From: Prevotella sp.
GTDB lineage: Bacteria; Bacteroidota; Bacteroidia; Bacteroidales; Bacteroidaceae
Assembly: GCA_017474925.1 (NCBI GenBank)
Contig: JAFVGN010000004.1
Span: forward strand, 1 to 58,960
Length of the DNA: 58,960 nucleotides
Direction of reading: 5' to 3'
In this document: piece after piece, positions 3,054 through 47,553 of the stretch
Numbering within the stretch: position 1 is the first letter of the stretch
How the letters are laid out: every line of letters starts with the position of its first letter
Translations under genes and position numbers: made by a program
Notes under the pieces: generated by a model
The model's input: only the letters and a program-made list of their open reading frames with translations
Databases searched by the model: none
What the model was told of the DNA's origin: nothing

Positions 3054-3221
3054 CGTTCCTCTTTTTAAAAATGTATATACTATATTATATGTTGAACCTT
3101 AGATTCAGAATGATGATACAAAAATAGATTAATTTCTGGAAATAGCATAAAAATTGTAGACATTTTTAAGTGTTTTTACTAAAAAAACGGATATATATAG
3201 TATTTTTACGAGAATAATATG

Positions 3222-23994: not shown

Positions 23995-25560
23995 ATGCTA
24001 CAAAAGGTGATTTATTTATTTGTATTGGCGGCAGTGTTTGTCTCTTGTTCTGGAGGCAAGACGAAGTACCGCATCGGTGTATCACAATGCTCTGAAGACG
24101 TGTGGCGCGACAAGCAGAATGCAGAATTGAGGATGGGAGCTTACTTCCATGACAATGTGGAACTGAAGTTCGCTACCGCCTATGACAGCGATGAACGGCA
24201 AGTTCAGCAGATTGACAGCCTGGTTAATGACGGTATTGATCTTTTGATTGTTGCTCCCAATCAGGTGTCGACCATTTCGCCCGCCATTGACCGGGCCTAT
24301 GACAAAGGCATTCCCGTCATTGTGTTTGAGCGCAAGACCAGTTCTCAGAAACATACCGCCTTTATTAGTGCCGATAACTACGAAATGGGACACGTCATGG
24401 GCGATTATATCGTCTCGAGACTTCATGGACACGGAACGGTGCTTGAGATAAGAGGTCTGGAAGGCTCGTCACCTGCCATTGAGCGCCATAATGGTTTTAC
24501 GGACGCCATCAAGAATGCTCCCGGCATCAAGGTTGTGGCGTCGCTGCAGGGCGACTGGACGGAACCGACAGCCTACGAGACTACGAAACAATGGCTCGAT
24601 AATAATAAAGAGGTTCGCGTAGACCTGGTGTTCGGTGCCAACGACCGCACAGCGATGGGCGCCCGAAGAGCGGTAGCAAATTCTTCACTCTCCACTCTTC
24701 ACTCTTCACTCTTCTGCGGCATCGACGGTCTTCCTGGTGAGAATGGCGGCATCCAGCTGGTACGTGACTCGCTGCTCGATGCATCGTATATCTACCCCAC
24801 CCACGGTGACCAGATTATCGACTTGGCAGTACGCATCTTAGAGGGGAAGCCCTTCGACAAGGAGACGCTGATGATGTCGGCCCTTGTCACCCACGACAAT
24901 GCCAAGGTGCTGCTGATGCAGAGCGAGGAACTGATGAAACAAGCTGAGCGGTTGGATTTGCTGCACGACAAGGCTGACAACTATCTGCACGAACTTGACA
25001 CGCAGCGCGTCGTCAACTGGCTGTCAGTCGGCATCATCGTCCTGCTGGTCATCGTCTTCATACTTTTCTACCTCTACCATCTTCGAAAAATAGCTATCCA
25101 GCGTGAACGTGTGGTCAACACGTTATGGAACCTCAGACCAGAAGACGTTCCAATAGTCCAAGAGTCCTCAGAAACACAGAATACGCCAGAGGTCGCCGAG
25201 GAAACGGAAGACAATGTGGCCGAGGAGAGCGAACCAGCTGCCGTGTCTGTCTTTATCACTCGATTCAAGGAAGTTGTCGAAGCACGGTTGGCCGATAGTG
25301 ACATCAGCGTAGAAAATCTGGCCTCAGACATGAACTTGAGCCGCGTCCAGCTTTACCGGAAGGTCAAGACGGTGACAGGCTCCTCGCCCGTCGAATTGTT
25401 GCGTACAGCCCGATTAAACCGCGCCTACCAGATACTGCTTACCACCGACAAGAGTGTGAGCGAGGTGGCGTACGCTGTCGGATTCACCGCTCCCTCCTAT
25501 TTCACCAAATGCTTCAAGGAAGAATACGGCATGGTGCCGGGTGACGTGAGGAAGAATTGA
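23995..25560 (+). CDS. membrane-spanning one-component regulator: periplasmic sugar-binding domain, TM helix, AraC-type DNA-binding domain
   Basis: A 521-aa protein. The N-terminus has a hydrophobic signal with a lipobox-like FVSC (Cys19). Residues about 25-335 form a periplasmic-binding-protein fold of the LacI/RbsB type (YRIGVSQCSEDVWR, LLIVAPNQVSTISPAIDRAY, VFGANDRTAMGARRAV, FCGIDGLPGENGG). One TM helix is at about 343-366. A linker rich in Glu and Ala is followed by an AraC HTH pair (about 420-521, with NLASDMNLSRVQLYRKVK and VAYAVGFTAPSYFTKCFKEEYG). The periplasmic start resembles that of fructose-sensing hybrid two-component proteins, but there is no HisKA, ATPase or receiver domain. 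It stands before the first SusC operon and is the likely sensor-activator for it. A CACTCTT-type repeat is embedded in frame at 24681-24714. Confidence 0.85.
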   Translation: MLQKVIYLFVLAAVFVSCSGGKTKYRIGVSQCSEDVWRDKQNAELRMGAYFHDNVELKFATAYDSDERQVQQIDSLVNDGIDLLIVAPNQVSTISPAIDRAYDKGIPVIVFERKTSSQKHTAFISADNYEMGHVMGDYIVSRLHGHGTVLEIRGLEGSSPAIERHNGFTDAIKNAPGIKVVASLQGDWTEPTAYETTKQWLDNNKEVRVDLVFGANDRTAMGARRAVANSSLSTLHSSLFCGIDGLPGENGGIQLVRDSLLDASYIYPTHGDQIIDLAVRILEGKPFDKETLMMSALVTHDNAKVLLMQSEELMKQAERLDLLHDKADNYLHELDTQRVVNWLSVGIIVLLVIVFILFYLYHLRKIAIQRERVVNTLWNLRPEDVPIVQESSETQNTPEVAEETEDNVAEESEPAAVSVFITRFKEVVEARLADSDISVENLASDMNLSRVQLYRKVKTVTGSSPVELLRTARLNRAYQILLTTDKSVSEVAYAVGFTAPSYFTKCFKEEYGMVPGDVRKN

Positions 25561-25651
25561 GAAATCCTTGAACTAAAGGCACAAAGTTTCCCGAAGGACG
25601 ATGAGAAAACTGAGAATTATCGTTCATTCCATCGCAAAAATGTTACATTGC

Positions 25652-25714
25652 AACATATTTTGCACGGGATGAACGATATTTTTATTCCCTCTAACCATAT
25701 AGTTACTACTTTTG
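25652..25714 (+). promoter_or_regulatory. candidate operator plus -7 box upstream of first susC
   Basis: AACATATTTT at 25652-25661, a 9-bp spacer, and GAACGATA at 25671-25678 form a bipartite motif. The -7 box TACTTTTG is at 25707-25714, exactly 36 bp from the G of GAACG. No -33 TTTG is present, as expected for an activator-dependent promoter. The same layout recurs before the second susC and, in a tandem form, before the GH32 gene. Also, ATCGTTCAT at 25619-25627 is an inverted copy of ATGAACGAT at 25669-25677. Confidence 0.6.
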
Positions 25715-25759
25715 CGATAGAAAATCGTAACAACAGTATTAACTAAAAACAAATTGCAA

Positions 25760-28700
25760 ATGAAACAGACGAAAAGATTGATTCTGAGTTTCCTGGCTCT
25801 ACTGCTATGTACAATAATGTACGCGCAACAGGAAATTACGGGAACCGTGTCTGACGATATGGGACCCGTCATTGGTGCAACGGTGATGGAGAAAGGCACC
25901 ACCAACGGCACAGTGACCGACTTCGACGGTAACTTCAAGCTGAAGGTGGAAGCTGGCAAGACGCTGGTATTCTCCTACATTGGCTACAAGACCACTGAGC
26001 TGCCTGCCACTGACAACATGAAAGTGACATTGCAAAGCGATGCTCAGGTTTTGAACGAAGTGGTGGTAACTGGTTATCAGGTACAGCGTAAGGCAGACCT
26101 TACTGGCTCTGTCGGTGTGGTAGATACCAAAGACTTTAAGGCAAGCGACACCGACCCCATGACATCACTACAGGGAAAAGTACCTGGTATGACCATTACT
26201 TCCAACGGATCACCTTCCGGCGAAGCAAATGTTCAAATCCGTGGTATCGGTTCCATGGGTGGTTCAAGCACGGCTCCTCTTTACATCGTAGACGGCATTC
26301 CCTATAGTGGTTCGCTGAATAACATGAATGCCTCAGACATTGAGTCAATGCAAGTACTGAAGGATGCAGCCTCTGCCTCTATCTACGGTTCACGTGCTGC
26401 CAATGGTGTCATTGTCATCACCACCAAAAAGGGTAAGAAAGGCGACAAATTCAATATCGATTTCTCCGCTTCGGTCTCTGTTGCCTGGATGACTCAAAAA
26501 ATGAAGCTTCTGAACACCCAGCAGTATGCTACTGCTCTGGTTCAGGCGGCTCTTAACGACGGAAAGAATCCTGTTGACTATGCTTCCAACTACGGTTTGA
26601 CTCTGAATGCAGTCAACGGCACTCCCATCTCGGTATACAATCCCGCTACAGGTGCCATGGATTCTTACTCCGTTGGCGGACTCTACGATGGCTTTATGAA
26701 TAGTAGAAAAACCATGCTGTACAGCGATACTGACTGGGTTGACGAAATAGGACGTACTGGTGTCACCCAGAACTACGACCTGTCCTTCTCTAAGGCTACC
26801 GACAAGGGATCGTCCCTCTTCTCTTTGGGTTACAAGAAAGCTACGGGTGTCCTGAAGTATACGGACTTTGAGAATTTCTCAGCTCGCATGAATAGTAGCT
26901 ACAAGCTAAACAGTATTATCAGCGTAGGTGAGAACGCTCAGGTTTCTTATTCAAACAGCGTGGACTGTGCTCCCCTGGAAAATGCCCTGAAGATGGCTCC
27001 CACACTGCCTGTCTACGAGATTGATGGTGAAACATTCTCAGGACCTGTCGGAGGTATGAGCGACCGCCAGAACCCAATGCGCGAACTTTACCATAACAAG
27101 GACAACCGCCTGAAGAAGTGGCGCATCTTTGCCAACGCCTACGTTGACGTCACTCCCGTCAATGGGCTGCTCTTCCGTTCCAATTTCGGTATCGACTACA
27201 CCAATAGCTACATTCGCAGTCTGCTGCACACATGGGATTCTGACGTTGTGAAGAACAGCACCAATGCAAGCACCATGGCCCAGACCCACAGCACCAAGTG
27301 GACATGGTCGAACACCTTGCAGTATAACTTCGACATTGCGGAAAGCCATAACCTCAACATCCTTCTTGGTATAGAAGCCCATCAGGACAATGGCATCGAT
27401 TTCTCGGGTCGTCGCACCGACTATCCGCTGGAAACCATCGACTACATGTGGCCCAGTGCTGGAACAGGTATCCAGACCGTCGTAGGTTCTGGCGACGAAT
27501 ACAAACTGATGTCATACTTCGGCAAGATTGACTACAACTGGAACGACCTGTTGCTGGCCAGTTTCACACTGCGTTACGACGGCTCCAGCCGTTTCGGTAA
27601 GAACAACCAGTATGGTACCTTCCCCTCTGTATCTCTCGGTTATCGTCTCTCCAAGCATATCCATGCCGACTGGCTGCGTGACTGGAAAATCCGTGCCAGC
27701 TACGGTGTGACCGGTAATCAGGGCATGAACTCGAACACCGCCCACTACGGACTTTATGCTGCCGACTACGGTTCCGGACGTGACATCTCTACTGCCTACG
27801 ACCTCAACTTACAACATTCTGGTACCTTCCCCTCTGGCTATCGCAAGGTGCAGTCGGCTAACGAGGACCTGAAATGGGAACAGTCGTCACAGTGGAACTT
27901 CGGTACTGATTTCTCACTCTTCGGTGGCGACCTCTATGGATCATACGACCTGTTCTTCAAGGAGACCAAGGACATGCTCGTCCAGCCAGCCTTCCTCGGT
28001 GCCATCGGTGAGGGCGGATAGACTTGGATCAACGGTCCCACGCTGAAGAACTGGGGTATGGAAGGCGTCCTTGGCTATCGTCACAAAACAGCTTGGGGCT
28101 TGTCGTACGACATCACAGGAAACATTGACTTCTTCCGCTCAAAGGTGACCTATCTGCCTGAGAATTCGAAGAACTCCTATGAACATAACGACTATCACAA
28201 TCTGGCTCAGGACGAGAAGGCATATGGTTCACGCATCGGCTATGTAGTGGAAGGACTCTATCAGTCGCGCGAGGAGGTTCTCTCATGCGGACAGGCCGGT
28301 GCTCGCGTCGGTGGTCTGAAGTATGCCGACCTCAATGGCGATGGTATGATCAACGAGAAAGACCGTACATGGGTCTACAATCCCGTACCCAACTTCTCTT
28401 ACGGTTTCACTGTCAACCTCAGCTATCGTGACTTCGACTTCACCATGTTCTGGCAGGGTGTCTCAGGCGTTGACGTCATCAACGACCAGAAATTCCAGAC
28501 CGACTTCTGGAGCATTACCGATGCTGGTTCGAATAAGGGCTCACGTCTGATTGATGCGTGGACTCCCGCCAACAATGGTTCCAGTATTCCTGCTTTAACC
28601 ACATCCAATGGTGCCGACGAGGGCCGTATGTCGTCTTACTTTGTCGAGAACGGCTCATATATCAAGATGCGTACCCTGCAGTTGGGCTACAGGCTACCCG

Positions 28701-28867
28701 TACAGCTCGTCAAGAAGCTGTTGCTCTCCAGTGCCCGCATTTATCTCTCTGGCGACAATCTCTGGACCATCAAGTCAAGTTCACTGACCTGTTCCGACCC
28801 AGAGAACACTGCTTGGAACTATCCGCATACTGCTTCCTTTACCTTCGGTGTCCAGGTGGGATTTTAA
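25760..28867 (+). pseudogene. SusC/RagA-type TonB-linked outer-membrane transporter interrupted by an in-frame amber codon
   Basis: Read through, this is a 1035-codon SusC-type transporter of a fructan locus: signal peptide, carboxypeptidase-regulatory-like domain (ITGTVSDDMGPVIGATVMEK), plug (LYIVDGIPYSG, VLKDAASASIYGSRAANGVI) and barrel ending FTFGVQVGF. Codon 754 (28019-28021) is TAG, between GAIGEGG and TWINGPTLKNWGMEG, and the frame stays open and conserved on both sides. A single base change therefore splits it into 753 codons and a remainder whose first ATG is 28058. The truncated product would lack about 280 barrel residues. It could be a recent null mutation or a sequence error. The first ~310 bp are about 96% identical to the second susC. 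It is followed by susD and a surface-binding lipoprotein. Confidence 0.85.
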
Positions 28868-32608: not shown

Positions 32609-34219
32609 ATGAGAAACAGCGTCACATACCTTATTATATTTATACTCACACTGCTGACTTCGTGCTCAGAGGCAGAGAAAACTTACAGAATCGGTGTGGC
32701 ACAATGTTCCAAAGGCCCGTGGCGCGAAAAGGTGAACCAGGAAATGCTGGCAGCCCAGCATCTGTATGAACACGATGTCAAGGTGGATATAGCCAACTCG
32801 TTTGACGAGCCTGAGTGGCAGGCCCGCCAGATTGACAGTTTGGCACAAACCGGCATCGACCTGCTGGTGGTAGCCCCCTACGAAGACATACAGCCCATCA
32901 ACGATGCCATAGCACGGGTGCTGAAAGCCGGCATCCCAGTGGTCAGCTTCGACCGCAAGACCAGTGCCGACTATACCGCCTTCATCGGTGGCAACAACGT
33001 CGAGGCCGGCCTGATAGTGGGACAATACATTGCTTCGATTGTCAGAGGCAAGCTACTAGTGTCGGAAAATCCCGTACCCCATGGCGTACGGGCTAAAAAG
33101 CCCCTGGTCATGGAGATTACCGGACTGCTAAGCAGCACACCTGCCCTTGAGCGCCACCTTGGTTTCGCAAAAGCCATGGACGAACTGCCCGAAGTGGAAT
33201 ACATCTGCCGCAAAAGCGACTGGTCGAGCGACGCATCCTGCAGAATCGCAACACAACTGATAGACTCGCTGCGACGGCATGACCCCGCACAGCTGGACCG
33301 CACCTTCGTATTCTGCCATAACGACGGCATGGCAACAGGCGTCTACAAGGCTGTAGTCGAGCAGAATGTAGAGGGGCGTATCAAGATCCTCGGCATTGAC
33401 GGCATGCCCGGCGAGGGATTGGAGTACGTCAAGTTCGGACACCAGATAGGCACCTACTACTATCCTACCCATGGCGAGAAGATAGTCAGGCTGGCTCTTG
33501 ACATACTGACAGGAAAACCATATGAACGCGAGAATCCCATGCTGGGCTTTGTCGTCACACCCGATAATGTAGATCTGGTAACAACCGAGTCTATAGAGCT
33601 AATGCGGCAAAACGAGCATATGGTGACCATACACGACAAGCTCGAAGCCTATTTCGGCCTCTACAACACCCAGCACAAGGTCCTCATTGGCAGTTTTGTG
33701 TGCATCGTGCTGCTCGTCATTGCCGTCGTCATGATATGGCGAGCCTATTTACAGACACAGAAAGCTATCAGAAAACGGCAGGAACTGAACGTGGAAGAGA
33801 TACTTTTCTATACCAATTCCGACAGCCGCACACTGCGTAAGGTCTTCGAGACACCGCAAGAGGAAATGCCCAAACCCCGTTCTCAGGATACCATTTTTGC
33901 AGAAACCCTGAACGAATCAATCCGCCAGAACATGTCAAACCCAAACCTTAAAATGGACGATCTTGGCGAGACGGTGGGTTTGAGCCGCGTGCAGCTATAT
34001 AGGAAAGTAAAGGCCATCACCGGGCTTACACCCGTAGAATTGCTTCGCCAGATGCGCCTGCAACAAGGCTACATCCTTCTGACAACTACCAACAAGACTG
34101 TTCAGGAGATTGCCTTTGAGGTGGGATTCAGAACACCGGGCTATTTTTCCAAGTGTTTCCGTCAGCAATATGGCAAATACCCAATGGAACTGAGGGATTC
34201 AACAAATATGACTTTGTAG
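32609..34219 (+). CDS. membrane-spanning one-component regulator: periplasmic sugar-binding domain, TM helix, AraC-type DNA-binding domain
   Basis: A 536-aa paralogue of the regulator at 23995. Signal with lipobox-like LLTSC, then a periplasmic-binding-protein domain (YRIGVAQCSKGPWREK, LLVVAPYEDIQPINDAIARV, CHNDGMATGVYKAVVEQ, ILGIDGMPGEG), a TM helix at about residues 365-387 (GSFVCIVLLVIAVVMIW), a short linker, and an AraC HTH domain (about 440-536, with DDLGETVGLSRVQLYRKVK and IAFEVGFRTPGYFSKCFRQQYG). No kinase or receiver domain. The recognition-helix segment SRVQLYRKVK is identical in both paralogues, so they may bind similar sites. It stands directly before the second susC with its own promoter. 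ATG 32609 gives a signal sequence right after the promoter. Confidence 0.86.
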   Translation: MRNSVTYLIIFILTLLTSCSEAEKTYRIGVAQCSKGPWREKVNQEMLAAQHLYEHDVKVDIANSFDEPEWQARQIDSLAQTGIDLLVVAPYEDIQPINDAIARVLKAGIPVVSFDRKTSADYTAFIGGNNVEAGLIVGQYIASIVRGKLLVSENPVPHGVRAKKPLVMEITGLLSSTPALERHLGFAKAMDELPEVEYICRKSDWSSDASCRIATQLIDSLRRHDPAQLDRTFVFCHNDGMATGVYKAVVEQNVEGRIKILGIDGMPGEGLEYVKFGHQIGTYYYPTHGEKIVRLALDILTGKPYERENPMLGFVVTPDNVDLVTTESIELMRQNEHMVTIHDKLEAYFGLYNTQHKVLIGSFVCIVLLVIAVVMIWRAYLQTQKAIRKRQELNVEEILFYTNSDSRTLRKVFETPQEEMPKPRSQDTIFAETLNESIRQNMSNPNLKMDDLGETVGLSRVQLYRKVKAITGLTPVELLRQMRLQQGYILLTTTNKTVQEIAFEVGFRTPGYFSKCFRQQYGKYPMELRDSTNMTL

Positions 34220-34237
34220 TCAACAACTGTTGCGTGA

Positions 34238-34300
34238 AACATATTTTCTATTTTGCGAACGATAATTGATAGTAGATTACCTTTCGCTTTTTTAATTTTG
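34238..34300 (+). promoter_or_regulatory. candidate operator plus -7 box upstream of second susC
   Basis: AACATATTTT at 34238-34247, a 9-bp spacer and GAACGATA at 34257-34264. The -7 box TAATTTTG at 34293-34300 is again 36 bp from the G of GAACG. There is no -33 TTTG. The identity of half-sites, spacer length and distance to the first susC region argues for a shared regulator. Confidence 0.62.
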
Positions 34301-34341: not shown

Positions 34342-37300
34342 ATGAAACAAGCGAAAAGATTGATTCTGAGTTTCCTGGTTCTACTGCTATGTACAATAAT
34401 GTACGCGCAACAGGAAATTACGGGAACCGTGTCTGACGACATGGGACCCGTCATTGGTGCAACGGTGATGGAGAAAGGCACCACCAACGGCACAGTGACC
34501 GACTTCGACGGTAACTTCAAGCTGAAGGTGGAAGCTGGCAAGACGCTGGTATTCTCCTACATTGGCTACAAGACCACAGAGCTGCCTGCCACTGACAACA
34601 TGAAAGTGACAATGCAAAGTGATGCCCAGGTCTTGAACGAAGTGGTAGTAACGGGTTACACCACCCAGCGCAAGGCAGATCTGACAGGTGCTATTTCGAC
34701 AGTTAATGTAGATGAAATAGCAAAACAAAATGAGAACAACCCGATGAAAGCCCTTCAGGGTCGCGTGCCAGGCATGAACATTCAGGCCGACGGTAACCCG
34801 AGCGGTGCTGCGACGGTTCGCATCCGTGGTGTGGGAACGCTGAATGACAACGACCCGCTCTACATCATCGACGGTGTGCCCACGAAGGCTGGTATGCACG
34901 AACTGAACGGTAACGACATTGAGAGCATCCAGGTGCTGAAGGATGCCGCTTCAGCCTCTATCTATGGTAGCCGCGCCGCCAACGGTGTCATCATCATCAC
35001 CACCAAGAAGGGTAAGGATGGTAAGGTAAAGGTGAACTTCGACGGTAGTGTCGCTGCCTCGTTCTATATCAACAAGATAGAGACGATGAACGCCAGCGAG
35101 TGGGGCCGCGCCTTCTGGCAGGCTAACATCAACGACGGTCTTAACCCCAACAACAATAATGTTGGCTACAATTATGAATGGAGCTATGACAAGTTTGGTA
35201 ACCCGATGCTAAACCACATGACGATGAACATGTTCCTTGATGAGAACGCTTCTGTACGTACCGGTGATACCGACTGGTTTAAAGAGATCACCCGCACGGG
35301 TGTCGTTCAGCAGTATAACCTGTCAGTAAGCAATGGCTCTGAAAAAAGCAATTCATTCTTCAGCGTCGGCTACTATGACAACCAAGGCACCATTAAGGAT
35401 ACGTGGTTCAACCGTCTCTCTGCCCGTGCCAACAACGACTTCAAGCTATTTGACGGAGCTGTCACCATCGGCGAGAACTTCACCATCAACCGTACCAAGG
35501 GTGTGGATGCTCCCGGTGGTGTTCTAGAGCACGCTTTGGAGTTCAACCCCAACTTTCCCATCTATGCAGAGAACGGCAAATATGCTCAAGCCCTGGGTGC
35601 CTACAGCGAGCGCGAGAACCCGCTGAGTATGATTGCAAACTCAAAAGATAACGAATATACACAATGGCGTTCGTTTGGCGATATACACCTGAGCGTCACA
35701 CCGTTCAAGAACTTCATGGTTCGCACCACCTTCGGTATGGACTACACGCAGAAGGCGCAACGTTTCTTCACCTATCCCATTGAGAACGGTAAGGTACGCC
35801 GTACCGACTCTGAATCAGAGAGCAAGCAGGAACATTGGATGCGCTGGATGTGGAACGCCATCGCAACGTACAATCTGGAGATTGGAAAACACCGTGGTGA
35901 CGCGATGGTAGGTATGGAGCTGAACCGTCAGGACTATACGTGGGATAGTGCCAAGCGCTACGAATATGCCATTCTAAACACTGACTATATGTGGCCATCG
36001 GCAGGTTCTGGACGCCAATTGGCAGAGGGTTCAGGAGATGGTTTCAGTCTCGTATCGTTCTTTGGCAAGGTGAACTACACCTATGACGACAAGTATCTGG
36101 CATCTGTTACTATCCGTCGCGACGGATCGAGCCGTTTCGGTTCTAATAACCAGTATGGTACCTTCCCGTCAATCAGTGCTGGATGGCGAATTTCACAAGA
36201 AAAATTCATGGAGAAGCTTACATGGCTCGATAACCTGAAGTTGCGCTACTCTTGGGGACAGACCGGTAATCAGGAAATTTCGAACACCGCTCGATATACT
36301 CTCTATAAATCAGTGGTATCTACAGGCCTTTGGGGCAGTGGTCAGGCAGGCACGTCATACGACATAACAGGCAATAATGGAGGTTACGATCTCGACAATG
36401 GCTTCGTACGTACCCAACGTGGCAATGAGGACATCAAGTGGGAGACAACCACTCAGAACAATATCGGTATCGACTTCGCCATTTTGAGGAACGAGGTCTA
36501 TGGATCATTCGACTGGTATAACAAGAATACAACCGACATTCTTCTCTTCATGGAGGGTATAGCCACTATGGGTGAAGGGTCTGGTCAGTGGACGAATGCA
36601 GGTGAGGTAAAGAACACAGGATGGGAGTTCAGCATAGGTTATCGTCATTCCCTGCTCAATGGTTTTTCATGGGACATCAACGGAAACATCAGTAAATACA
36701 ATAACAAGGTCGTAAAGTTGCCTGATACGGTTGCTGCCAATGGAAAATATGGTGGTAATGGTGTGAAAAGCGTGGTTGGTCATGCGATGTTCTCACAGGT
36801 GGGATATATCGCCGACGGCATCTTCAAGAGCCAGGACGAGATTGACAACCATGCCATACAAGAAGGGGCTGGTCTTGGACGCATTCGATACAAGGACTTG
36901 AACGGTGACGGTAAGATTACGGAAGACGATCAGGACTGGATCTACGATCCCACTCCAGATTTCACATGGGGTCTGAACATCTACCTGCAATACAAGAATT
37001 TCGACCTTACCATGTTCTGGCAAGGTGTACAAGGAGTCGATGTTGACTGTCGTGGTTTTAAATCACAGACTGACTTCTGGGCAAACTCAGCCATCAACGT
37101 ACCTTATCTGAATAAGGGTGTCCGGGTCCTCGATGCGTGGAGTCCTACAAATCCTGACAGCGACATCCCAGCACTGACCACTAGCGACACAAACAACGAA
37201 GGTCGCCTGTCTTCTTACTACATCGAGAACGGTTCGTATGCCAAGCTCCGCACCATTCAGCTAGGCTACAACATGCCAAAGAGTATCACGGAAAAGCTTC

Positions 37301-37446
37301 GCATGGACCGCATCCGCCTCTATGTATCGGCTCAGAACCTGGTGACCATCAAAAGCAGCACGTTCACAGGTGCAGACCCAGAGAACCCAGGATTCAACTA
37401 TCCTATACCTCTTAACCTTACATTCGGTGTGAATGTCGGATTTTAA
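34342..37446 (+). CDS. SusC/RagA-type TonB-linked outer-membrane transporter (second fructan operon)
   Basis: A 1034-aa intact SusC. Signal peptide (MKQAKRLILSFLVLLLCTIMYA), carboxypeptidase-regulatory-like domain (residues about 25-100), TonB-box/plug (NEVVVTGYTTQRKADLTGAI, LYIIDGVPTKAG, VLKDAASASIYGSRAANGVIIITTKKGK) and barrel ending LTFGVNVGF. It imports oligosaccharides, by context fructans, across the outer membrane with its SusD partner 35 bp downstream. The first ~310 bp are nearly the same as in the first susC, after which the two proteins diverge strongly, so the pair likely differ in substrate while sharing a homogenised N-terminal domain. Confidence 0.95.
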   Translation: MKQAKRLILSFLVLLLCTIMYAQQEITGTVSDDMGPVIGATVMEKGTTNGTVTDFDGNFKLKVEAGKTLVFSYIGYKTTELPATDNMKVTMQSDAQVLNEVVVTGYTTQRKADLTGAISTVNVDEIAKQNENNPMKALQGRVPGMNIQADGNPSGAATVRIRGVGTLNDNDPLYIIDGVPTKAGMHELNGNDIESIQVLKDAASASIYGSRAANGVIIITTKKGKDGKVKVNFDGSVAASFYINKIETMNASEWGRAFWQANINDGLNPNNNNVGYNYEWSYDKFGNPMLNHMTMNMFLDENASVRTGDTDWFKEITRTGVVQQYNLSVSNGSEKSNSFFSVGYYDNQGTIKDTWFNRLSARANNDFKLFDGAVTIGENFTINRTKGVDAPGGVLEHALEFNPNFPIYAENGKYAQALGAYSERENPLSMIANSKDNEYTQWRSFGDIHLSVTPFKNFMVRTTFGMDYTQKAQRFFTYPIENGKVRRTDSESESKQEHWMRWMWNAIATYNLEIGKHRGDAMVGMELNRQDYTWDSAKRYEYAILNTDYMWPSAGSGRQLAEGSGDGFSLVSFFGKVNYTYDDKYLASVTIRRDGSSRFGSNNQYGTFPSISAGWRISQEKFMEKLTWLDNLKLRYSWGQTGNQEISNTARYTLYKSVVSTGLWGSGQAGTSYDITGNNGGYDLDNGFVRTQRGNEDIKWETTTQNNIGIDFAILRNEVYGSFDWYNKNTTDILLFMEGIATMGEGSGQWTNAGEVKNTGWEFSIGYRHSLLNGFSWDINGNISKYNNKVVKLPDTVAANGKYGGNGVKSVVGHAMFSQVGYIADGIFKSQDEIDNHAIQEGAGLGRIRYKDLNGDGKITEDDQDWIYDPTPDFTWGLNIYLQYKNFDLTMFWQGVQGVDVDCRGFKSQTDFWANSAINVPYLNKGVRVLDAWSPTNPDSDIPALTTSDTNNEGRLSSYYIENGSYAKLRTIQLGYNMPKSITEKLRMDRIRLYVSAQNLVTIKSSTFTGADPENPGFNYPIPLNLTFGVNVGF

Positions 37447-42444: not shown

Positions 42445-42525
42445 GTATTTTTGTTACTATGAACGTTTTTTTGTAGTGTTTGAATCATTATTTATAGTGT
42501 TATGCTTGATAAATGACTAATTTTG
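42445..42525 (+). promoter_or_regulatory. tandem candidate operators plus -7 box upstream of the GH32/MFS/fructokinase operon
   Basis: GTATTTT at 42445-42451, a 9-bp spacer, GAACG at 42461-42465. Exactly 21 bp further a weaker copy reads TTTTTTT-N9-GAATC with GAATC at 42482. The -7 box TAATTTTG is at 42518-42525. It lies 36 bp from the proximal G (the same as at both susC promoters) and 57 bp from the distal one, so both copies sit on the same helical face. Confidence 0.55.
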
Positions 42526-42553: not shown

Positions 42554-44227
42554 ATGAAAAAATTATTGTTGACCTTGATGGCGTTAGCTGCACTGACAAT
42601 TGCTCAGGGGCAGGTACAGCCGATGGTGCTTGGCGAGAACCACGCCATGCTGAAACTGGAGCAGGGCAGAAAGATGCTGTTGCTCCCCGTACAGGAGAAA
42701 GAAGAGATTGCGGCCATTGCCGTGCTCGATGGCAGGAACGAAATGGTGAAACGGCTGAACGTGAAGTTGGCTGTTGACAAGGTGGACTATCTGGTGCCAG
42801 TGGAACTAAACGGTGCCAAATTGCTCGACATCACGTTCCATGGCGACCGCCGCACAAAGGGTGCCGTCAAAGATTTTGCCTGCTGGCGCGAAATGAAGTA
42901 CAGCGAAACGTTTGACACCTCGAACCGTGAGCGCTTCCGCCCGCTGTACCACCACACGCCGCTGTACGGATGGATGAACGATCCGAACGGAATGTTCTAT
43001 AAGGACGGTGTATGGCACCTGTACTATCAGTACAACCCTTATGGCTCCATGTGGGAGAATATGACGTGGGGACACTCTACGTCGCGCGACCTCATTCACT
43101 GGGAGGCTCAGCCGCTGGCAATAGAGAGCGACTGGCTCGGCAGCATTTTCAGCGGCTCGTGTGTCGTCAACGGCAATGACGTCGTGGCTTTCTACACTTC
43201 GGCAGGACAGCACCAGACGCAGTCGATGGCGGTGTCGAAAGACGGGGGAAAGACCTTTACCAAATATGAGGGCAACCCCATCGTTACGAGTGACAAGCCC
43301 GACTTCCGTGACCCTAAGGTATTCTGGCACGAAGGGACAAAGCGCTGGATTATGCCACTGGCGGTAGGACAGGAGATGCAGTTCTACTCGTCCAAGGACA
43401 TGAAAGCGTGGAAGTATGAATCGTCCTTTGGCCAGGAGTACGGCAATCATGGCGGTGTCTGGGAATGTCCCGACCTGTTTGAGCTGAAAAACGAGAAAAC
43501 GGGCATGAGCAACTGGGTGCTGCTTTGCAACATCAACCCCGGCGGTCCTTTTGGCGGTAGTGCTACACAGTATTTCGTCGGACAGTTTGATGGCCATAAG
43601 TTTACGTGCGAGTCGATGCCGAAGGTGACGAAATGGATGGACTACGGCAAGGACCACTATGCTACGGTATCGTTCTGCAATGCACCTGACAACCGCCGTG
43701 TCGTACTGGCGTGGATGTCCAACTGGCAGTATGCCAACCAAGTTCCTACCATGCAGTTCCGCTCGGCCAACTCCATACCCCGCGACCTCGGACTGTTCAA
43801 GTACGGCGAGGAGACCTATGTCAGCGTGACACCTTCACGGGAAATGGACGCAGTGCGCGGCAAAAAGCTGAAGCAGCCCACAGAGGCCTGCGAGATTGTC
43901 GTGGACATGAAAAGCCAGACAGAGATTGTGCTGTCGAACGCAAAAGGCGAGCAGGTGGTCATGACCTACGACGGCAAGAAGCAGACTTTCTCGATGGACC
44001 GTACCAAGAGCGGTGACATTAGCTTCAGCAGCGACTTCCCCTGCGTGACTGTGGCTCCGACCTACGGGAACCTGAAGCAGCTCCGCATCTTCATCGACCG
44101 CTGCAGCATCGAGGCCTTCGACGCCGACGGCAAGATGGCTATGACCAATCTGGTATTCCCCTCGGAGCCTTATAGAAATATAAAGGTAAAGGGCGGAAAA
44201 GCAACTATTTACGAAATCAAATACTAA
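42554..44227 (+). CDS. GH32 exo-beta-fructosidase (levanase/inulinase type), periplasmic
   Basis: A 557-aa exported enzyme (signal MKKLLLTLMALAALTIAQGQ) that releases fructose from fructo-oligosaccharides. An N-terminal domain of about 100 residues (DUF4980-like, as in Bacteroides fructan-locus GH32 enzymes) precedes the propeller. Catalytic triad: Asp143 in WMNDPNG, Asp253 in FRDPK, Glu304 in ECPD. The C-terminal beta-sandwich has RIFIDRCSIEAFDADGK, the usual GH32 C-domain signature. A cleavable signal without a lipobox suggests the periplasm. It begins the third transcription unit, six bases before the MFS gene. Confidence 0.95.
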   Translation: MKKLLLTLMALAALTIAQGQVQPMVLGENHAMLKLEQGRKMLLLPVQEKEEIAAIAVLDGRNEMVKRLNVKLAVDKVDYLVPVELNGAKLLDITFHGDRRTKGAVKDFACWREMKYSETFDTSNRERFRPLYHHTPLYGWMNDPNGMFYKDGVWHLYYQYNPYGSMWENMTWGHSTSRDLIHWEAQPLAIESDWLGSIFSGSCVVNGNDVVAFYTSAGQHQTQSMAVSKDGGKTFTKYEGNPIVTSDKPDFRDPKVFWHEGTKRWIMPLAVGQEMQFYSSKDMKAWKYESSFGQEYGNHGGVWECPDLFELKNEKTGMSNWVLLCNINPGGPFGGSATQYFVGQFDGHKFTCESMPKVTKWMDYGKDHYATVSFCNAPDNRRVVLAWMSNWQYANQVPTMQFRSANSIPRDLGLFKYGEETYVSVTPSREMDAVRGKKLKQPTEACEIVVDMKSQTEIVLSNAKGEQVVMTYDGKKQTFSMDRTKSGDISFSSDFPCVTVAPTYGNLKQLRIFIDRCSIEAFDADGKMAMTNLVFPSEPYRNIKVKGGKATIYEIKY

Positions 44228-46822: not shown

Positions 46823-46854
46823 TTTGGAAGATAAGCTAAAACTGTCTATCTTTG
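46823..46854 (+). promoter_or_regulatory. promoter of the kinase-like gene
   Basis: TTTG at 46823-46826 and TATCTTTG at 46847-46854 are 20 bp apart, a full Bacteroidetes promoter, 22 bp before the ATG at 46876. Confidence 0.75.
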
Positions 46855-46875
46855 CACAATAGAATAAAAATAAGG

Positions 46876-47553
46876 ATGATAAATGACGGTACTCAACGAA
46901 TACCACCGCAAGGTGACAGCAGAGAAGATGAAGTCGGTAGCTTATTGGCAGCAGCATCCGATTTCGCACGAGGCGTGCTTGAGTCAATTCAAGCGCTTGC
47001 GGGAACAGCGTCTTGCAAGGGAGTCCAAATTGCAAGACTAAAAGAATGGGCTATCAGACATGAGTGTTGGATAGACAAAGATACACTTGGTACATTTTCT
47101 GATCGTGGTTCTGAGAATGAAGTCTATACTTCATCCGATAGTAAAAATGTATACAAGTTAAATGACTTCAGATATTCTGACGATAACTTAACACCATTCT
47201 TTGAACGTATTATTGTACATAACCAGTTATTTCCAGATTGTGAGTATTCGTTTCTTGGTTTTGCAGAGAATCGAGATGGCAAGGTCTGTGCCGTACTTCG
47301 TCAGCCATTCATCCTATCCCAGCGCGAGGCTACTCAAACAGAGATCAATGAAGAAATGGAACGATTGGGATTTAACAAAGAACTGGATGACGGATATTTT
47401 ACCAATAGCGACTACGACATTTTCGATGCTGTGCCTAATAATGTGTTGAAAGGCGAAGACGGACATTTATACTTTATTGACACTATTATCTATAAAACAG
47501 GAACTGGAGGTTATGATACATACCAAAGCCTGTCGCCACGCGCGGGCAGATAA
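46876..47553 (+). CDS. polyvalent-protein-type kinase domain protein
   Basis: A 225-aa protein. From about residue 62 (LKEWAIRHECWIDKDTLG) it follows the pattern of the putative kinase domain found in Bacteroidetes mobile-element polyvalent proteins: a glycine-poor loop DRGSENEVYTSSDSKNVYKLND with a possible ATP-binding Lys, HNQLFPDCEYSFLGFAE, VLRQPFILSQREATQTEI, and the C-terminal NNVLKGEDGHLYFIDTIIY, where Asn and Asp are the metal-binding positions. Such kinases occur on mobile elements; targets are unknown. It has its own promoter and is bounded on both sides by 22-bp-period repeats. A 52-codon frame overlaps its 5' end in another frame (46883-47041), so the true start could lie further downstream. 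Confidence 0.65.
   Translation: MINDGTQRIPPQGDSREDEVGSLLAAASDFARGVLESIQALAGTASCKGVQIARLKEWAIRHECWIDKDTLGTFSDRGSENEVYTSSDSKNVYKLNDFRYSDDNLTPFFERIIVHNQLFPDCEYSFLGFAENRDGKVCAVLRQPFILSQREATQTEINEEMERLGFNKELDDGYFTNSDYDIFDAVPNNVLKGEDGHLYFIDTIIYKTGTGGYDTYQSLSPRAGR
46883..47041 (+). CDS. possible small overlapping ORF (52 aa), unrecognised
   Basis: ATG at 46883 opens a frame beginning MTVLNEYHRKVTAEKMKSVA and ending LARESKLQD before TAA at 47041. It overlaps the 5' end of the kinase-like gene in a +1-shifted frame. Its composition (charged, helical, few rare codons) looks protein-like, and it is only 29 bp after the -7 box. It may be the real first gene of the unit, with the kinase starting later, or a chance frame. 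Confidence 0.3.
   Translation: MTVLNEYHRKVTAEKMKSVAYWQQHPISHEACLSQFKRLREQRLARESKLQD

Follow-up and report, generated by a model that had tools for sequence, protein, structure and literature searches.

A fixed-geometry tandem-repeat operator before the fructan genes of a Prevotella locus and its probable membrane-bound regulators

What do the three fructan transcription units of this Prevotella sp. have in common upstream of their promoters, and which proteins could read it? The window, i.e. the whole stretch of 58,960 nucleotides analysed (contig JAFVGN010000004.1, assembly GCA_017474925.1), encodes in order regulator 1, susC1 (in two frames), susD, DUF4960, regulator 2, susC2, susD, DUF4960, GH32, GH32, MFS and PfkB. 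Just past this locus, at 46852-47553, lies a gene for a Kinase-PolyVal domain protein, of a type met in mobile elements. The nearest named contigs, in which regulator 1 is found at 99% identity, belong to two sheep-stomach MAGs labelled Prevotella sp. and Bacteroidaceae.

A preliminary description had proposed that a bipartite operator, RTATTTT-N9-GAACG, precedes all three units. This pattern indeed matches exactly, on the plus strand, at 25655-25675, 34241-34261 and 42445-42465, against 0.02 matches expected from shuffled windows, none of 100 shuffles containing three; with one mismatch allowed, the only extra match is at 3054-3074 on the minus strand. The whole own assembly (2.28 Mb, 64% complete) contains the same three copies, all preceding fructan genes, with no further copy, none on the opposite strand and no match to the reversed control pattern. 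Genus-wide, the bare pattern was rejected as a marker because it is not specific: it matches in 124 of 200 genomes, many of which are also matched by the reversed control. Our results show that the motif is a real and conserved operator, correctly spotted but incompletely described. Its parts and those of the locus are as follows.

23995..25560, plus strand: regulator 1, 521 aa, Peripla_BP_4 sensor and HTH_18 (Pfam)
25620..25626, minus strand: inverted distal half-site of site 1, TCGTTCA (TGAACGA on the minus strand), 87 bp from the -7 box
25649..25656, plus strand: slot-58 half-site of site 1, TGCAACAT; it holds the start of the AACATATTTT first described
25670..25677, plus strand: slot-37 half-site of site 1, TGAACGAT
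25707..25714, plus strand: -7 box of susC1, TACTTTTG
25760..28021, plus strand: susC1, interrupted, behind site 1, with a second ORF at 28058-28867
32609..34219, plus strand: regulator 2, 536 aa, same architecture as regulator 1 (Pfam), different clade
34235..34242, plus strand: slot-58 half-site of site 2, TGAAACAT
34256..34263, plus strand: slot-37 half-site of site 2, CGAACGAT, with no inverted arm
34293..34300, plus strand: -7 box of susC2, TAATTTTG
34342..37446, plus strand: susC2, behind site 2
42460..42467, plus strand: slot-58 half-site of site 3, TGAACGTT, which is the GAACG first described, in the other register
42481..42488, plus strand: slot-37 half-site of site 3, TGAATCAT
42518..42525, plus strand: -7 box of the GH32 unit, TAATTTTG
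42554..44227, plus strand: GH32, behind site 3, followed by the MFS transporter (44234) and the PfkB kinase (45407)

When positions are counted from the -7 box (TAnnTTTG), half-sites at 58 and 37 form a 21-bp direct repeat, and a third, inverted half-site is often present at 86-87 bp. From the G of GAACG to the T of the box there are exactly 36 bp at susC1 (25671 to 25707, TACTTTTG) and susC2 (34257 to 34293, TAATTTTG), just as had been claimed, and 57 bp, that is 36 + 21, at the GH32 promoter (42461 to 42518, TAATTTTG). At site 3 (42445), the RTATTTT half lies in another slot than at sites 1 and 2, GAACG fills the distal slot 58, and the proximal slot 37 is occupied by TGAATCAT at 42481. A common register for all three sites was thus rejected, site 3 being shifted by one repeat. 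The single pattern of the preliminary description holds for sites 1 and 2, which share a register, and is one repeat unit out at site 3, because the window has both slot forms and site 3 is of the second kind. The half-sites themselves had to be redrawn, as the actual units are not RTATTTT and GAACG but TGnA(A/C)(C/G), 21 bp apart. Site 1, described as bipartite, does have two direct half-sites, to which the overlooked inverted one at 25620-25626 must be added.

At a cutoff of E <= 1e-40, relatives of regulator 1 are encoded by 134 of 200 genomes of the genus, and downstream of the best 30 of these relatives there is mostly a near-palindrome of about 60 bp, not a bipartite site. The geometry was analysed in 60 stretches around regulator hits and 40 more including other genera, a hand-picked and not random sample, with a distance histogram built on 134 boxes of 164 susC- and GH32B-like genes. 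Of 106 GAACG occurrences, 84 are exactly 36 or 57 bp away from the box (47 and 37, respectively; the next offset has 4), and of 81 CGTTC occurrences at these fructan-gene boxes, 65 are 86 or 85 bp away (42 and 23, respectively; the next offset has 2). The 1244 other boxes of the same stretches have a mean of 1.5 GAACG per offset, yet 24 at 36 and 21 at 57. Most of these look like further operators, being located before MFS genes, before ORFs of ~300 and ~790 residues, on the other strand, or before susC or GH32 genes missed by the gene filter; a few, e.g. L074:8098 and L255:17156, look like chance. Lack of conservation at orthologous fructan loci had been named beforehand as refuting the proposal; conservation was looked for in relatives and found, and the shared operator, its two direct half-sites and its fixed promoter spacing are kept before the orthologous susC and GH32 genes for fructan use.

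A GAACG slot was called in 67 of 88 susC genes, as slot 37 with the inverted arm (32), slot 58 with the arm (19) or slot 37 only (16); the other 21 have the arm only (4), nothing (7) or no box (10). For GH32B-like genes (n=76, paralogs included), slot 58 was called in 18, 8 of them with the arm, and the remaining genes have the arm only (3), none (20) or no box (35). No GAACG slot was found in stretches L109, L112, L247, L267 and L268. At the listed promoters, when slot 37 is TGAACGAT, slot 58 mostly has a weaker form, e.g. TGCAACAT, and when slot 58 is TGAACGA or TGAACGT, it is slot 37 that is mostly weaker; the strong form occupies both slots in few cases (L084:14773, L095:3787, L117, L264). 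In the window, slot 37 is the strong one at sites 1 and 2 (first kind) and slot 58 at site 3 (second kind). The window and 60 Prevotella-type stretches contain about 65 pairs of degenerate half-sites spaced by 21 bp, of which 56 are positioned at exactly (58,37), the next offset having 2. The operator precedes susC, GH32 and MFS genes in relatives, and susC1, susC2 and GH32 in the window.

Promoters of Bacteroidetes have a -33/-7 form. Over 125 distinct sites of the window and relatives, the mean information content is 0.89 bits in the region 60-31 bp before the box and 0.32 bits in the region 30-1. A canonical -33 TTTG, starting 23-25 bp before the box, is present in 2 of these 125 sites, in agreement with the absence noted in the preliminary description. 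TTG at 27 (22/125) and TTTG at 28 (8/125) belong, by their position, to the flank of slot 37 and not to a canonical -33. The low information close to the box and the missing TTTG thus fit activator-dependent promoters.

Could the two susC sites be alike merely through recent duplication of their units? Over ~350 bp (from 25737 and 34319), susC1 and susC2 have nearly identical 5' ends, as such a duplication would leave them, but the strong similarity starts at 25737, just 23 bp before the start codon, and the operator regions are diverged outside the slots, as had been observed, and of different subtypes. As the element moreover recurs at syntenic loci of many other genomes, this explanation is almost certainly wrong. 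Near-identical 5' ends beside diverged upstream DNA suggest gene conversion. Separately, susC1 (25760-28867) is split in two frames of 755 and 269 residues, most syntenic relatives having one frame of ~1,040 residues.

The inverted arm raises another possibility, namely that the near-palindrome and its T run are an intrinsic terminator of the upstream regulator gene, conserved for reasons unrelated to promoter control. At site 1 and most regulator-1-type sites the arms could pair and a T run follows, and in most regulator-1-type rows the element begins 14-70 bp past the regulator stop codon. A terminator belongs at the 3' end of a gene, but in L082 and L258 the complete element separates divergent genes, with 57 and 175 bp to the regulator gene start; L256 is alike at 640 bp, judged by the distance to the regulator alone. 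Sites 2 and 3 have no second arm, and the arms, where present, are conserved in sequence and fixed in their distance from the -7 box. The terminator was therefore rejected, and we consider it very improbable; an operator acting on the downstream promoter remains the preferred reading. A mirrored divergent promoter was also considered and is not claimed for the window, since the candidate box on its minus strand, AAACTTTG at 25589-25582, has the mirrored distance but one mismatch, and the six operators with exact mirrored boxes leave a wider gap to the regulator than is seen in the window.

Which proteins, then, could bind this operator? Between the Peripla_BP_4 sensor and the HTH_18 domain of both window regulators lies one strong hydrophobic segment, starting at about residue 342 in regulator 1 and 358 in regulator 2, and a weaker one is N-terminal. 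No HisKA, HATPase or REC was found in either protein with Pfam and custom-built domain profiles. The proteins at 23995 and 32609 have the sensor and the C-terminal AraC domain of HTCS regulators; they are not filed as HTCSs, as no kinase or receiver is detected in the chain by either means. Among solved structures, both sensors match best to 2x7x ("sensor protein"; E = 7e-79 and 4e-50), which we take to be the BT1754 fructose sensor. Both regulators are thus predicted to be a BT1754-like sensor joined to an AraC domain across the membrane.

The inverted arm co-varies with the clade of the adjoining regulator. At susC genes directly behind members of the regulator-2 clade, susC2 included, slot 37 is present in 11/11 and the inverted arm in 0/11, a twelfth member, with no susC directly downstream, being excluded from these rows; directly behind other regulators, the arm is present in 57/71. 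The difference (both window sites included, L266 left out) has a Fisher p = 3e-7, not to be taken literally as the rows are related. Four of the 14 rows where the arm was not called (L254, L255, L256, L258) do have both arms, their -7 box having been missed. Sites 1 and 2 are operator subtypes that track the clade of the adjoining regulator, and this co-variation supports the assignment of site 1 to regulator 1 and of site 2 to regulator 2, as far as the compared sequences can tell. The preliminary assignment of the regulators at 23995 and 32609 is borne out to this extent, and the data do not point to one regulator serving all three sites.

Alternatively, the operator could be read by some other regulator, either a distant HTCS or a wider sugar regulator, with the adjoining one-component proteins acting elsewhere. 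Site 3 and several MFS and GH32 sites have no adjoining regulator gene, and the same geometry is found with full HTCSs and at one more place in the own genome. This place, C65:60160-60232 (stretch L314), has TGAAACAT and TGAAACGT exactly 58 and 37 before a -7 box; it is a TGAAACA-type direct repeat upstream of a 247-residue ORF, outside the fructan locus. The 58/37 geometry is consequently not confined to fructan genes in the own genome, while the GAACG half-site is, and geometry alone does not identify the regulator. That the operator subtype follows the clade of the adjoining regulator argues against another reader, as does the finding of the GAACG motif nowhere else in the own assembly, 64% complete though it is; we regard this alternative as improbable. 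Taken as a whole, the data are best explained if the fructose-type PUL regulators whose genes adjoin the element bind to it, which we hold to be very probable.

How specific is the element? A sequence-only model of 98 positions was derived from 21 sites including the three of the window, whose own scores (71, 47 and 42.5 bits) are thus high by construction. These three, and site 1 read on the other strand (44 bits), are the only matches above 40 bits in the own genome, the next being C65:60160 at 23 bits. Among 40 relatives, 29 match at E <= 0.01, including 21 of the 24 of the genus; 8 of 16 from other families match, at most at 23.4 bits. In 15 other-genus loci with full HTCSs (L233-L247), GAACG is absent from the slots, and 5/5 degenerate half-site pairs 21 bp apart, among 294 boxes, have the exact (58,37) position; three of them precede GH32 genes and two a ~795-residue ORF.

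Direct-repeat sites beside regulators with no phosphorelay resemble those of SusR, which is itself not known to use one. SusR-like PUL regulators also have direct-repeat sites, at 67 or 77 bp from each other (PMC3878776, as excerpted), unlike the window sites, 21 bp apart, and the protein is here an AraC domain with a sugar-binding-protein sensor. HTCS sites of Bacteroides are, according to the same excerpts, direct repeats averaging 21 bp (PMC3878776). This is the form seen here, with a tandem repeat of ~21 bp at all three sites upstream of PUL transport and hydrolase units, so that the element appears to be an HTCS-type PUL operator, of a kind already known. The closest counterpart, HTCS_Fru (BT1754), likewise has a ~21 bp direct repeat and a fructan locus with transporter and kinase, and shares with the window regulators the AraC-type DNA-binding domain and the sugar-binding-protein-type sensor (PMC3878776, same excerpts). 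The window differs by one half-site sharpened to TGAACGAT and, at many sites, an inverted third half-site, in a comparison made without the published HTCS_Fru logo; the sharpened half-site and the inverted arm would be features of this lineage. Unlike HTCS_Fru, the window regulators have no kinase, ATPase or receiver, and would thus lack the phosphorelay at an otherwise HTCS-type operator. AraC/XylS activators have head-to-tail half-sites as here (PMC9723621, in excerpt). The present system differs in that the sensing domain is predicted to be periplasmic and the protein to be membrane-bound, and in that many sites have arms in both orientations. No one-component or kinase-less HTCS was found in the titles and abstract openings of the listed papers or, beyond these, in excerpts of PMC10766802, PMC11784079, PMC3878776 and PMC11253607.

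A mechanism can be proposed, in which each AraC-type DNA-binding domain would read TGnA(A/C)(C/G)AT and two domains would bind head-to-tail at slots 58 and 37; as 21 bp make two turns, both would lie on the same face of the DNA. By the usual model of AraC activation, the proximal domain could then take the place of the absent -33 element for RNA polymerase. The inverted half-site at 86-87 makes regulator-1-type sites nearly palindromic and may accommodate one more subunit, which would stabilise or gate occupancy. The window regulators might act as one-component systems, in which periplasmic binding of a sugar, assumed from homology to be of the fructose type, would be transmitted through the transmembrane segment to the AraC domains with no phosphorelay.

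The regulators adjoining this operator in relatives are of three progressively simpler versions of one membrane sugar sensor. Among 115 regulators found in the stretches, classified by domain profiles plus Pfam on four intermediates and four HTCSs, 38 are full HTCSs, with HisKA, HATPase, REC and AraC in 38/38. In the class of 726-774 residues, 8 of 9 have HisKA and REC with no HATPase, the ninth, L266, resembling a frameshifted HTCS. The short class is devoid of HisKA, HATPase and REC in 67 of 68 members, the exception, L069_17201, being cut by the stretch end. The ATPase-less, HTCS-like regulators (726-772 aa) stand in the place of the one-component regulator in L098, L102, L104, L105, L106, L107, L251 and L271. 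A GAACG slot is present at the susC directly downstream in 8/12 HTCS rows, 6/7 intermediate rows and, for one-component regulators, 42/52 rows outside and 11/11 inside the regulator-2 clade.

The sensor tree implies 11 architecture changes, of which at least 5 are forced by starred branches for the one-component label, two labels (L266, L069_17201) being wrong. A tree of the short DNA-binding domain, with L266 omitted, needs 7 changes and forces 1, and the two trees disagree over the placement of the intermediates. Many independent kinase losses were rejected for these reasons, the trees giving no common order or number of losses, and domain exchange among regulators is possible. That one operator was kept while its signalling machinery was stripped, from full HTCS through ATPase-less to one-component regulators, all syntenic, seems to us slightly favoured on balance.

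Besides the operator itself, a structured sequence was observed in L092, L100, L102, L105, L106, L251, L259 and L269, beyond the operator, running against susC toward the regulator 3' end. This candidate RNA is ~150 nt long, with a first hairpin of ~78 nt, and is divergent from susC at the fructan operator in most cases. On the strand of the RNA, its -7 box is preceded by GAACG at a distance of exactly 36 bp in 7 of the 8 stretches and of 37 bp in L259; of three named contigs also carrying it, L130 and L202 have the 36-bp distance and L159 has no GAACG before the box. Its positions are the following.

L105:12155-12320, plus strand: RNA candidate
L102:6560-6725, minus strand: RNA candidate
L251:5899-6064, minus strand: RNA candidate
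L269:6128-6293, minus strand: RNA candidate
L106:12873-13038, plus strand: RNA candidate
L259:12914-13084, plus strand: RNA candidate
L092:13233-13398, plus strand: RNA candidate
L130:3946-4111, minus strand: RNA candidate
L159:9710-9875, minus strand: RNA candidate
L202:2801-2966, minus strand: RNA candidate
L100: RNA candidate, first half alone

In the fold of ten sequences (L100, which has no second half, being omitted), 92.6% of cells are paired, against 32-43% when the alignment is slid, a difference favoured by the derivation of the structure from these same ten sequences; helix 2 is the weakest (74% paired). Ten pairs are changed on both sides, against 3.0 in shuffles (0/500 as high). 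As the first-hairpin loop is complementary to the RNA's own 3' part, two folds could be mutually exclusive or a pseudoknot could form. The eight stretches gave no Rfam match at or above a family's gathering score, and no small-RNA literature on Prevotella PULs was found with the terms searched. The RNA 14-mer GGTCTGCGACAACC occurs 23 times in 22 of 200 genomes (reversed control, 4), at least 10 of the 23 occurrences being within 1.5 kb of regulator 1 relatives; of those ten, eight are beside regulators of 742-792 residues (ATPase-less, three by domain search and five by length alone) and two beside one-component ones. The RNA is not claimed for the window, where the 14-mer has nothing nearer than two mismatches; the own genome has two copies with one mismatch.

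Two protein families also have their own operator. The first, of ~290-310 residues, is found in L064 (14060-14944), L067, L071 (14299, minus strand), L076 (17341-18255), L082, L095 and L254, its members being 68-88% identical to that of L064; like-positioned ORFs in L074, L100 and L071 (12409) share just 44-73 residues with it. The second, of ~770-795 residues, is found in L111 (2606-4948), L114 (7404-9773), L117, L119, L233 and L235, in Prevotella-type as well as other-genus HTCS loci, and is 62-78% identical to the L111 protein. No Pfam match was found for the L064, L076, L111 and L114 proteins, nor any NCBIfam match for those of L064 and L114.

In a one-contig genome (G045), a one-component regulator at L118:11689-13206 directly precedes a fructan susC, with coordinates resembling those of the Segatella copri inulin PUL. 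No contiguous HTCS is reported for this PUL in the excerpted text of PMC11784079, and our finding may point to the regulator missing beside it (PMC11784079), G045 being taken as S. copri from its coordinates alone. More generally, the operator provides a testable element of fixed geometry for fructan use in Prevotella, here from the ruminant gut. If it was indeed kept while the signalling machinery was stripped, the phosphorelay of the fructose HTCS would be dispensable, and a periplasmic sugar-binding domain could directly drive a membrane-tethered AraC dimer. Regulators that have or lack the kinase parts at the same kind of site form a natural series in which to ask what the phosphorelay of HTCSs contributes.
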